NCBI GenBank assembly: GCA_903922455.1
Contig: CAIXTT010000230.1
Span: 1 to 38,908, forward strand
Length of the DNA: 38,908 nucleotides
Direction of reading: 5' to 3'
Source of the DNA: an uncultured Bacteroidota bacterium
GTDB lineage: Bacteria > Bacteroidota > Bacteroidia > AKYH767-A > OLB10
Below the pieces are notes generated by a model. That model was not told the DNA's origin, ran no database searches, and worked only from the letters and a program-made list of their open reading frames with translations. Below are positions 25,696 through 38,908 of this stretch, piece after piece. Position 1 is the stretch's first letter. Each line of letters starts with the position of its first letter. Position numbers and translations under genes: made by a program.

Positions 25696-26907
25696 TTATG
25701 CTTTGATAGCATGTCCCATTTTATCACGCTTGGTTTCCAAATATTGTTGGTTGTGAGGGTTAGGAGAAATTTCGATGGGAATACTTTCTACTATTTCCAG
25801 CCCGTAGCCAATGAGTCCAGCGCGCTTCGTGGGATTATTGGTCATCAAGCGCATTTTACTGACGCCTAAGTCACGAAGTATTTGTGCTCCTACTCCATAA
25901 TCACGTTCATCCATCTTGAAGCCCAACTGTAAATTCGCTTCTACCGTATCTAATCCTTGCTCTTGTAATTTATAAGCAAGTAATTTATTCATCAACCCAA
26001 TACCTCTTCCTTCTTGATTCATATAAAGTATCACGCCATTTCCTTCTTTGTTTATCATCTCCATAGCTGCATGTAATTGGGGACCGCAATCGCATCGGCA
26101 CGAACCAAAAATATCGCCTGTCATACAAGATGAATGCACGCGTACCATCACAGGTTCGTCTTCTTTCCATGTACCTTTTATTAAAGCAAGATGTTCTTCA
26201 TGACTTTCTTTATGACGATATGCCACCATATTAAATTCACCGTACGTAGTAGGCATGTTCACGGACACCATTCTTTCTATCAAACTCTCCTTTTCAAGGC
26301 GGTACTTTATTAAGTCTTCAATAGAAATAATGATCATGTTAAATTTAGCCGCTAGTTCCATTAACTCGGGAAGACGAGCCATCGAACCATCTTCATTCAT
26401 AATTTCTACAATCACGCCGCTTGGGAAAAAACCTGCCATGCGCGCTAAGTCCATAGCAGCTTCGGTATGTCCTGCTCTTCTAATTACGCCACCTTTCTTA
26501 GCTTTTAAAGGGAAGATATGTCCAGGGCGGCCTAACTCTTCTGCTTTTGTAGATGGGTTTACGAGTGCATTAATGGTTTTAGAACGATCTGAGGCTGAAA
26601 TCCCTGTAGAACAACCATGCCCTAACAAATCGACAGAAATCGTGAAAGCAGTTTCATGAGAAGCGGTGTTTTTATTTACCATCATGGTCAAATCCAATTC
26701 TTCACAACGATCTTCACTGAGTGAAACACAAATTAAACCGCGTCCATGTGTAGCCATAAAATTGACCAATTCAGGCGTAGCGCATTCTGAAGCCATTAAA
26801 AAATCGCCTTCATTTTCGCGATCAGCATCATCCACAACAATGATAATTTTTCCTGCACGAATGGCTGCAATGGCATCTTCTATTTTATTTAATACAATTT
26901 CACTCAT
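25696..26907 (-). CDS. ribBA: Bifunctional 3,4-dihydroxy-2-butanone-4-phosphate synthase / GTP cyclohydrolase II
   Basis: A 403-residue fusion that makes both starting compounds of riboflavin. Residues 1-205 are the RibB part, with [11 protein letters not shown] near residue 25 and [13 protein letters not shown] for substrate and metal contacts. Residues 206-403 are the RibA part, with the zinc cysteines in [15 protein letters not shown] (C-x10-C-x-C) and the GTP-binding [10 protein letters not shown]. Both halves look complete. It stands alone on the minus strand with its own promoter box. No FMN-riboswitch-like sequence was recognised in the leader. Confidence 0.93.
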
Positions 26908-26933: not shown

Positions 26934-27181
26934 GGGATTCTACACCCATGATTTTTTAAACGAAAGTTGAATAAGCACATTAAAATGGAAAAATTACGAG
27001 ATCAAAATTTCTATTTTCATTCATTCCTCCACACTAGTAATCAACGAGATATAACAAATGTAAGATTTGATGTAAGATTTTATCTAAAAACGCGAACCTT
27101 ATGGAGTGGTGGGCGTTTAAATTCACATAACCGCAACTCAAAATTGCAATCGTTCTTCAAAAAAATTAAAGTTTTTATTTG

Positions 27182-27372
27182 GTTTTAGGTTGATGTCAGA
27201 AAACGAGTAACCCCGTAAGGTTACCCGCGACTGACCTGATCAAATAAAAAATATTATAAACGGAACCCCGTAAGGTTTCAAAAACAATTGCCCTGTAAGG
27301 CTTAAAGAAGGTTTTGGTGTTTTTAGGTTGATAGTCAGTAAGGGACAGCCCCGTAAGGCTTTCCCGCCTGGC
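27182..27372. repeat. Degenerate repeats forming hairpins with a shared CCGTAA loop
   Basis: The 10-mer CCCCGTAAGG occurs at 27211-27220, 27266-27275 and 27349-27358, with a variant CCCTGTAAGG at 27291-27300. Each sits in a hairpin with a six-base loop CCGTAA (CTGTAA in the variant). Stems differ but still pair: GTAACC/GGTTAC at 27207-27224, AACC/GGTT at 27264-27277 (extendable by G-U and G-C on the plus strand), GCC/GGC at 27290-27301, and GGGACAGCC/GGCTTTCCC at 27342-27365 with one mismatch. The first and last belong to a longer, roughly 50-base imperfect direct repeat that begins TTTTAGGTTGAT and contains GTCAG. Function unknown. Confidence 0.6.
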
Positions 27373-27419
27373 AAATTCGAGACGAGAAGTGCTCGCTAAA
27401 AGCAAACCAAATACTCACA

Positions 27420-27450
27420 AAAAAAGCTCCTCAAAATGAGGAGCTTTTTT
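27420..27450 (-). terminator. Strong intrinsic terminator
   Basis: A perfect 14-bp inverted repeat, AAAAAAGCTCCTCA / TGAGGAGCTTTTTT, around an AAA loop. It begins 18 bases past the stop of the minus-strand FAA hydrolase. Because both flanks are A- and U-runs it can also stop plus-strand transcription coming from the hairpin-repeat region. Confidence 0.85.
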
Positions 27451-27468: not shown

Positions 27469-28500
27469 TTAATGAGCGTGTTTAATTTTTTTCTTTAGAT
27501 CTAAAATGGAAAATCGATCTTCGTCTTTTCGGATGGTATTCGACAAGCAACCTAATCCATCAATCGTCATTTCTATTACATCGCCTTCTTGCAACCATTG
27601 TACAGGATAATTTGCATCATTTAATTTTCCGGTGCCATTTAACTCGAGAAAACATCCTGTCCCCACGGTTCCTGAACCAATCACATCGCCAGGAATAATA
27701 TCCACTCCGTAAGCACATCTTTCAATAATTTCGGCAAATGTCCAATCCATTTGCGCCATATTTCCTTCGCTTACTTGAATACCATTTACATGACATTTCA
27801 TCGAGAGATTATATCGCTCTCCGGTATGATCTTCCTTAGGTGCAGTTAAAAAATTTTGTAATTCATCGGGCGTCACTAAGTACGGACCAATAGCAGTAGA
27901 AAAATCCTTGCCTTTCGCCGGACCCAAATTCAGTTTCATTTCTTCCATCTGGAGTTGGCGAGCACTAAAATCATTCATAATCGTGTATCCAGCGATGTAC
28001 TGATCAGCTTGCGATGCACGAATATTTCTTCCTCTTTTACCAATCACCACAGCGGCTTCCAATTCAAAATCGAGTTGACGAAAATGGTCGGGCATACACC
28101 ATACATCACCTGAACCTTGAAGTGCATTATGGTTAGTGAAATAAAAGATAGGATACTCATCGAACTCTTCAATCATATCTACTTTACGATTTCTACGCGC
28201 AGCAGCAACGTGTTGACGAAATGCATAGCCATCGCGGCAAGATGTTGGCTCTGGAACGGGAGAAACAATTTTCAATTCAGACCACAAAAAAGAGGGCATA
28301 TCCAATTTACCTTCTTTTATTTTGGCTTCAATTTCACGAGTTTCATTCATCGTTTTTTCTTCGCCATCCAACAATTCTTTCATGGTTTGAGAACCCATCT
28401 TCCCCAACAGCTTTCCCCCTTCAGCTACATTATATATCCTTTCATTAATGTACAATCCCAACAAATTTTGGCCATTTAGGCGATAAGAAACGAGTTTCAT
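27469..28500 (-). CDS. Fumarylacetoacetate hydrolase family protein
   Basis: A 343-residue FAH-fold enzyme. The start at 28500 (MKLVSYRLNGQNLLGLYI) is chosen; an upstream in-frame start at 28530 adds ten residues that overlap the promoter. The metal-binding acids are visible in LDFELEAAVVIGKRGR (E-x-E) and YTIMNDFSARQLQ (D), with the active-site region GKDFSTAIGPYL and the C-terminal GSGTVGTGCFLELNG. By context, divergent from homogentisate dioxygenase, it most likely hydrolyses fumarylacetoacetate to fumarate and acetoacetate, the last step of tyrosine breakdown. Other FAH-family activities (C-C hydrolase, decarboxylase) are possible. Confidence 0.85.
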   Translation of the reverse strand: MKLVSYRLNGQNLLGLYINERIYNVAEGGKLLGKMGSQTMKELLDGEEKTMNETREIEAKIKEGKLDMPSFLWSELKIVSPVPEPTSCRDGYAFRQHVAAARRNRKVDMIEEFDEYPIFYFTNHNALQGSGDVWCMPDHFRQLDFELEAAVVIGKRGRNIRASQADQYIAGYTIMNDFSARQLQMEEMKLNLGPAKGKDFSTAIGPYLVTPDELQNFLTAPKEDHTGERYNLSMKCHVNGIQVSEGNMAQMDWTFAEIIERCAYGVDIIPGDVIGSGTVGTGCFLELNGTGKLNDANYPVQWLQEGDVIEMTIDGLGCLSNTIRKDEDRFSILDLKKKIKHAH

Positions 28501-28517
28501 AATTCTATTATTTTTTA

Positions 28518-28542
28518 CAAAAGTAACCAATGGTTAACTTTG
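28518..28542. promoter_or_regulatory. 25-bp near-palindrome carrying two back-to-back promoter boxes
   Basis: CAAAAGTAACCA, a central A, and TGGTTAACTTTG form a palindrome matching at 10 of 12 positions, with a perfect TAACCA-A-TGGTTA core at 28524-28536. The right end contains TAACTTTG (28535-28542) pointing to homogentisate dioxygenase. The left end, read on the minus strand, is TACTTTTG (28525-28518) pointing to the FAA hydrolase ATG 18 bases away. Both match TAnnTTTG. A dimeric regulator bound to the core would touch both promoters. Confidence 0.55.
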
Positions 28543-38035: not shown

Positions 38036-38404
38036 ATGAAGCTTGAAAATCGTAAGCAAAAAGTGGTTCCTTTAAAACGATTCTATATCCGATTAGGGCG
38101 CTATTCCATTTTTTCCTTCAGTCTCATTTTTTTCTCCATAGGTATTGGAACATTAGGATACCATTTCACCGCTGCTTTATCATGGTTAGATAGCTTTCAC
38201 ATGACCTGTATGATCCTTACAGGGATGGGTCCAGTTGCTGAAATGAGATCAACTCATGCGATTCTATTTTCCTCCTTCTATGCTCTCTATTCAGGGGTTG
38301 CATTCGTAAGTATAACCGCTATTTTCTTAGCCCCTATCGCACATCGATTATTGCATATACTTCATGTTGAATCCACAAAAACTAGCATAGAAGAAGAGGA
38401 TTAA
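38036..38404 (+). CDS. Two-helix membrane protein, K+-channel-like with altered filter
   Basis: A 122-residue membrane protein with a basic N terminus, a first membrane helix (about 24-45), a short re-entrant-looking segment (about 50-68), a second helix (about 74-100) and an acidic tail. The helix-loop-helix layout and the segment WLDSFHMTCMILTGMGPV recall the pore unit of two-helix potassium channels (Ion_trans_2). The filter T-V-G-Y-G is replaced by TGMGP, so K+ selectivity is unlikely. I recall this G-M-G-P form in a wider family of uncharacterised bacterial membrane proteins. Function unknown. It is 30 bases after the SRPBCC gene. Confidence 0.6.
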   Translation: MKLENRKQKVVPLKRFYIRLGRYSIFSFSLIFFSIGIGTLGYHFTAALSWLDSFHMTCMILTGMGPVAEMRSTHAILFSSFYALYSGVAFVSITAIFLAPIAHRLLHILHVESTKTSIEEED

Positions 38405-38805: not shown

Positions 38806-38879
38806 GGGGAATTAGCTCAGTTGGCTAGAGCGTTTGCATGGCATGCAAGAGGTCATCGGTTCGACTCCGATATTCTCCA
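38806..38879 (+). tRNA. tRNA-Ala (anticodon GGC)
   Basis: A 74-base cloverleaf. The acceptor GGGGAAT pairs with ATTCTCC and includes the G3-U70 wobble pair, the main identity element for alanine. D-arm GCTC/GAGC, anticodon stem TTTGC/GCAAG with loop ATGGCAT (anticodon GGC), five-base variable loop, and T-arm ATCGG/CCGAT with loop TTCGACT. The discriminator is A73. The next bases are CAT, so the 3' CCA is not encoded and must be added after transcription. Confidence 0.95.
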
Positions 38880-38908
38880 CATTAAAAATCAACACCTTAT
38901 AGATATAA

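Follow-up and report, generated by a model that had tools for sequence, protein, structure and literature searches.

A predicted non-coding RNA beside ribBA in Bacteroidota, with a constant CCGUAA loop on changing stems

Why would neighbouring hairpins keep one loop while their stems go separate ways? The question arises in a 38,908-nt stretch of DNA from an uncultured Bacteroidota bacterium (contig CAIXTT010000230.1; the whole stretch is called the window below), in the intergenic region between ribBA and a gene of the fumarylacetoacetate hydrolase family. A sequence-only reading of the window had described four hairpins with the loop CCGTAA (CTGTAA in one) on differing but paired stems, two of them within longer repeats, next to a strong terminator. 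It suggested selection on a nucleic-acid structure, perhaps a non-coding RNA (ncRNA) ending at the terminator, or else a mobile hairpin similar to repetitive extragenic palindromes (REPs). Our analyses confirmed the description, and the copies with covarying stems that this reading had proposed to look for were found in relatives and elsewhere in the genome, which strongly supports both selection on structure and an ncRNA. The region apparently belongs to a class of Bacteroidota RNAs not described so far, in which the apical loop C[CCGUAA]G is constant and the stems that carry it change freely. As for its function, we lean by a modest measure towards a stand-alone ncRNA of about 320 nt that displays the loop to a binding factor and titrates this factor as a decoy, or sponge.

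Results

In the window, matches to CCCYGTAAGG at 27211, 27266, 27291 and 27349 on the plus strand correspond to four hairpins spanning 27207–27365. Hairpin 1 (27207–27224) is GTAACC[CCGTAA]GGTTAC with 6 bp, and hairpin 2 (27262–27279) is GGAACC[CCGTAA]GGTTTC, again with 6 bp including one G-U. Hairpin 3 (27290–27301), GCC[CTGTAA]GGC, has a stem of only 3 bp and is retained in relatives as TTGCCCYGTAAGGCA; hairpin 4 (27342–27365) reads GGGACAGCC[CCGTAA]GGCTTTCCC and has 9 bp with one C·U mismatch. A fifth match at 38215 on the minus strand lacks a comparable hairpin. Five matches in the window were found against 0.03 expected, none of 100 shuffles reached this count, and a chance origin of the four loops is excluded.

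Two of the hairpins are embedded in longer modules on the plus strand, at 27183–27235 and 27321–27372. Each module starts with the repeat TTTTAGGTTGAT, at 27183 and 27321, and continues with an outer stem (GTCAG/CTGAC in the first) that encloses the CCGTAA hairpin; our covariance model R1 scored them with 69.1 and 62.0 bits. Downstream, a perfect 14-bp stem with a T run (27420–27450, plus strand) forms the intrinsic terminator, which could act on both strands. The folding energy of 27170–27450 is −89.7 kcal/mol, compared with −61.9 ± 4.9 kcal/mol for shuffles (z −5.73). From conservation and folding we predict an ncRNA at 27127–27450 on the plus strand, its 5′ end placed by promoter-like boxes and its 3′ end by the terminator.

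In the family of this genome (f1, 24 genomes), this predicted RNA gene is conserved. A DNA search of 100 relatives turned up homologues in the genus and the family; within its own genome, the same kind of search found no second copy of the 241-bp region. Modules of the family follow the layout TTTTAGGTTGAT-NGTCAG-[stem]CCCCGTAAGG[stem]-CTGAC, and small hairpins such as TTGCCCCGTAAGGCAA often lie in between. With R1, the E-values of which are rough, we detected 42 modules in 22 of the 24 genomes, always at a single locus per genome holding one to three modules. In all 22 genomes ribBA lies divergently beside the RNA, and the neighbour on the opposite side varies. An alignment of 22 modules had 97.3% of its cells paired, against 17–40% in controls with slid partners, and double-sided changes occurred in 9 of 14 pairs. 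Manual choice and trimming of the 22 sequences bias the slid control towards structure; the double changes are independent of this choice. TTTTAGGTTGAT is invariant in the alignment core and, together with the outer stem, is a feature of the f1 module. Sequence comparison shows constraint at the RNA level, stem covariation, one syntenic locus per genome, a constant loop, stem turnover and gene-like boundaries.

The functional unit likely exceeds the four-hairpin segment and extends over about 27094–27450, taking in promoter-like boxes as well as a boxA-like leader. The boxes GAACC (27094–27098) and CGTTTAA (27114–27120) are separated by 15 nt on the plus strand. Most f1 members keep G(T/A)AACC-N15-16-CGTT upstream of the RNA, which we take, by its similarity to the consensus, to be a putative promoter of the extracytoplasmic function (ECF) sigma type. 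Further upstream, two TGTAAG repeats (27058–27081) might mark a regulator site. Relatives show the dyad CTTACA-NN-TGTAAG there, namely G007 and G022 of f1 and genomes of f3, another family within the same order, and both families carry TGTAAG or the dyad upstream. TACA-NN-TGTA resembles BlaI/MecI/CopY operators, which we regard as a lead only. Behind the boxes follow a 5′ hairpin GCAA...TTGC (27133–27147, plus strand), replaced by other stems at the same position in relatives, and the element CGTTCTTCAAA (27151–27161, plus strand), which reads CGTTCTTTAAA in relatives. The CGTTCTTTAAA-like element, kept by most f1 members, is close to CGTTCTTTGAA in the 16S leader of the same genome and is a putative boxA-like antitermination element. 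At the other end, the genus-conserved GAGACGAGAAGTGCTCGCTAAAAGC (27379–27403, plus strand; alignment A3) directly precedes the terminator.

Shorter forms exist in f3. Nine of ten ribBA upstream regions of this family hold one or two short units, each made of two CCGTAA hairpins of which the second is the terminator; where inspected, the units sit between ribBA and a gene with a TamB domain. The tenth genome (G035) has its short unit elsewhere, beside a similar gene. The f3 terminators have a T run on one side only, and several units carry a TATCATTG box, which is close to the Bacteroidetes −7 consensus. At ribBA, no CCGTAA cluster was found in f2, f4 or f5, nor at 20 loci taken from further families in the class.

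Furthermore, the genome under study (G000) contains a second locus with the same loop. A pyruvate/2-oxoacid ferredoxin oxidoreductase gene on contig C99 is preceded by eight CCGTAA hairpins (437–745), of which the last is a terminator. The congeners G001 and G002 have syntenic loci, with a DUF4476 gene on one side and the oxidoreductase on the other, and 8 and 14 loops; among the three arrays the loop is identical and the stems are unrelated. Folding of the arrays gave z values of −5.4 for G000 and −4.8 for G002. The minimum-energy fold of G002 displays the array hairpins, whereas that of G000 instead pairs some near-identical neighbouring units. In all three genomes the first hairpin is preceded, at a distance of 36–61 nt, by TGGCACG-N4-TTGAA, of which G002 carries a further copy before the DUF4476 gene. 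Three arrays near yajQ in a distant family (f13) are preceded at −32 to −35 by (C/T)GGCACG-N4-TTGC. Such sigma54-like sites stand before six arrays of two families against 0.14 expected, a count best read as two independent cases because orthologous loci are not independent. The yajQ gene lies near pairs or arrays of CCGTAA hairpins in several genomes of one f13 genus (L202, L205–L208 and L210), and at L205, L206 and L210 a sigma54-like site precedes the array.

Across the class, a scan of 395 genomes for two CCCGTAAG 12–42 nt apart matched in 51. By hand tally the pair pattern occurred about 150 times and its reversed control about 40 times; the matches to the true pattern were strongly clustered. 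Several of these loci were inspected and proved to be arrays of 4–15 hairpins with a constant loop and mostly differing stems, some of them tandem duplications. In nine array regions, 66 of 76 hairpins with at least 5 bp had a CCGTAA-type loop. We also compared 84 distinct hairpins from ten regions, which had been selected by loop irrespective of stem: over 7 bp, 85.4% of cells were paired, against 56% in shuffled and 24–45% in slid controls, and the closing C-G was present in 83 of the 84. The arrays elsewhere than at the f1 modules are without the TTTTAGGTTGAT element. Viral contigs had one match per locus and no arrays among the matches listed. Sequence analysis thus documents an RNA class with RNA-type covariation, homogeneous loops, stem turnover between congeners, and promoter-like and terminator signals.

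Other repeats were seen alongside the class. In several families, CCGTAA hairpins have in their vicinity a G/U-rich GGTTAG-TTTA-like stretch (L069, L074 and L193, in L193 on the opposite strand), which is related to GGTTTTGGTNNTTTTTAGGTTGAT in the modules of f1. The genome G005 (loci L076–L105) shows a different, dispersed motif, ATCCCCGTAAGGG, mostly as single copies at many places; with 53 CCCYGTAAGG matches, compared with 3 in the control, it is a repeat specific to this species and has no relation to the hairpins described above. At L070 (G031:C65), a tandem repeat with a unit of about 52 nt contains TGACCCTGTAAGGGTCA and, unlike the CCGTAA arrays, has a conserved stem.

In the genome under study, CCCGTAAG occurs 23 times in total. 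Eight copies lie at C99, three at the window locus, where the fourth loop is CTGTAA, and three at terminators, once on C296 and twice on C303; the remaining sites are unstructured, with stems of at most 3 bp, and fall nearly all within long open frames. Apart from a 4-bp match within a reading frame, the further structured sites inspected in G001 were terminators, too. The terminators L409 (G000:C296) and L421 (G001:C112) are orthologous, with the same two flanking genes; their stems differ, but both have retained the CCGTAA loop. At L410 (G000:C303), two tandem paralogous small genes of secreted type are each followed by a terminator with a CCGTAA cap.

The neighbouring ribBA (25696–26907, minus strand; Pfam DHBP_synthase and GTP_cyclohydro2) is divergent and the FAA_hydrolase gene (27469–28530, minus strand; Pfam FAA_hydrolase) convergent. 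Close to the window end lies a gene for tRNA-Ala (GGC) at 38806–38880.

Discussion

How could such a locus work? We infer that an RNA of about 320 nt (about 27127–27450, plus strand) is transcribed divergently from ribBA and ends at the terminator, and that an RNA-binding factor, most probably a protein, would recognise its constant CCGUAA loop. With four sites in the window RNA and eight in the C99 RNA, the factor would be titrated when alternative-sigma promoters fire, which would be ECF-like at the window locus and sigma54-like at C99. The boxA-like leader may help RNA polymerase to traverse the structured untranslated transcript, and TTTTAGGTTGAT before each long hairpin could be a second conserved site, either for base-pairing or for another protein. 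Beyond this locus, there is a fair, though less than even, chance of a class-wide post-transcriptional regulatory system of Bacteroidota, in which a CCGUAA-hexaloop-binding protein would be controlled by decoys of 4–15 hairpins under sigma54-like and ECF-like promoters. Such a system would parallel Csr/Rsm but use another site and another protein.

Several observations weigh against the decoy. A single strong hairpin in an mRNA leader, as the obvious target of the factor, was not found in this genome, whose structured sites outside the two loci are terminators; this is the chief weakness of a decoy and the chief support for a loop that is merely stable. Terminators capped by CCGTAA can likewise be explained by stability. 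Moreover, the extra conserved element of the f1 modules is absent from arrays elsewhere, and the arrays are non-syntenic between families, so that they may share descent or have arisen repeatedly.

The main rival has a realistic, if minor, chance of being right: CCGUAA could be a hexaloop that is preferred in the lineage and is unusually stable or quick to fold, and the arrays would stabilise or space RNA with no loop-specific binding. UUCG is an analogous preferred loop in enterobacterial terminators, and CCGTAA caps terminators in this genome and in G001 and, within f3 units, the second hairpin. However, stability alone would permit GNRA or UNCG loops, yet the arrays are near-uniform in the 66 of 76 loops counted above, and as many as 15 loops remain the same between congeners in which every stem has turned over.

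A base-pairing small RNA (sRNA) is improbable. The repeated single-stranded TTTTAGGTTGAT would then be the seed, like the R1′ seed of FopS/GibS, and the hairpins a scaffold, in agreement with the invariance of TTTTAGGTTGAT and with a similar TTTAAGGTTAAC in the published FopS query (PMC11697453). The exact complement of TTTTAGGTTGAT is, however, not enriched outside the locus: this genome has 3 sites elsewhere, compared with 2 for the reversed sequence, the six genomes searched gave about the control level, and the sites seen are in coding regions or lack a common position. Nor can TTTTAGGTTGAT account for the constant loop, because arrays elsewhere do without it.

Still less probable is pairing through the loops themselves with target RNAs bearing CUUACGGG. 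C-rich loops serve as seeds in some known sRNAs and many copies would increase avidity, but pairing loops have no need of the closing C-G that 83 of 84 hairpins keep, and CCCGTAAG, counted on both strands, is rarer in this genome than the reversed control (23 against 40). It is highly improbable that the structure is a cis-acting minus-strand leader of ribBA. Although the RNA is always upstream of ribBA in two families, promoter-like boxes and the boxA-like element, like the one-sided T run of f3 terminators, indicate the plus strand, arrays that share the loop do not sit next to ribBA, and the window has no match to a flavin mononucleotide (FMN) riboswitch. Mobile DNA hairpins, of the REP type or similar to miniature inverted-repeat transposable elements, have next to no probability: the elements are palindromic and repeated, and some arrays are tandemly duplicated, but each genome has a single syntenic locus, with no conserved stem or flank between copies and few scattered copies; beyond the two loci, those of this genome are structured only at a few terminators. 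A coding explanation was rejected, as the hairpin spacings are not multiples of three.

Little is known about RNA-binding regulators of Bacteroidota outside Bacteroides, and a conserved RNA that preserves mainly one loop is a ready bait for partner identification. Should there be a titrated protein, it would open a regulatory network of this abundant phylum to testing. Even if the loop is merely stable, a fixed loop with complete stem turnover within a genus would offer a clean natural experiment on the selection of hairpin loops.

Comparison with known systems

Structured intergenic RNAs, with function partly unassigned, have been predicted in Bacteroidetes before, as for the motifs Flavo-1 (RF01705), Bacteroidales-1 and 6S-flavo (PMC2864571). 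With Rfam 15, no family except tRNA reached its gathering score in the window and none fell below an E-value of 0.7 in eight related loci, a comparison without GUCCY-hairpin and Bacteroides-2, which have no accession in the table of PMC2864571. Literature searches in open-licence papers returned no relevant description of the loop sequence or of RNAs of this kind.

REPs and bacterial interspersed mosaic elements (BIMEs) of the GTAG and CGTC types are short intergenic palindromes, often downstream of genes and many of them transcribed (PMC3733652). The CCGTAA hairpins are likewise short palindromes within intergenic DNA. REPs, however, are high-copy and conserved in sequence and tag, whereas here only the loop is conserved and copies sit at one or two loci, in contrast to the dispersed palindromes that are the hallmark of REPs and their RAYT transposases. 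The annotated neighbours include no transposase; no genome search for a RAYT transposase was made. Unlike in CRISPR arrays, which combine near-identical repeats with unique spacers of uniform length, stems differ between units and spacings range from 24 to 82 nt. A type III toxin–antitoxin system of the ToxI kind, with tandem RNA repeats immediately before a toxin endoribonuclease gene, does not fit the neighbours, which are ribBA and FAA_hydrolase, or DUF4476 and the oxidoreductase.

FopS and GibS of Bacteroides thetaiotaomicron, sRNAs acting with RbpB, share a conserved single-stranded UUUAAGGUUAAC-like element (PMC11697453). Ours is also a Bacteroidota RNA, and its UUUUAGGUUGAU is similar to that element, but CCGUAA arrays are not described for FopS/GibS (PMC11697453). 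They are multicopy RNAs with a 5′ seed that is single-stranded and only a terminator hairpin behind it, whereas the RNA described here has a single locus and several internal hairpins.

CsrB/CsrC and RsmX/Y/Z are decoy sRNAs of gammaproteobacteria, in which many short hairpins share the CsrA-bound GGA loop. Here, the loop is CCGUAA with no GGA motif, the promoters are alternative-sigma-like, and the f1 RNA adds outer stems and a conserved single-stranded element. Because the loop motif differs, we regard the RNA as decoy-like but not as a member of the CsrB/RsmZ group. Like CsrB/RsmZ, it would be a stand-alone RNA with a terminator end, many short hairpins and a common apical loop on varying stems, with a hairpin number that differs between species and transcription tied to dedicated regulators. 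The hallmark of these decoys, many hairpins with one apical loop in each transcript-sized unit, recurs with four hairpins in the window, eight at C99 and up to 15 in the class.
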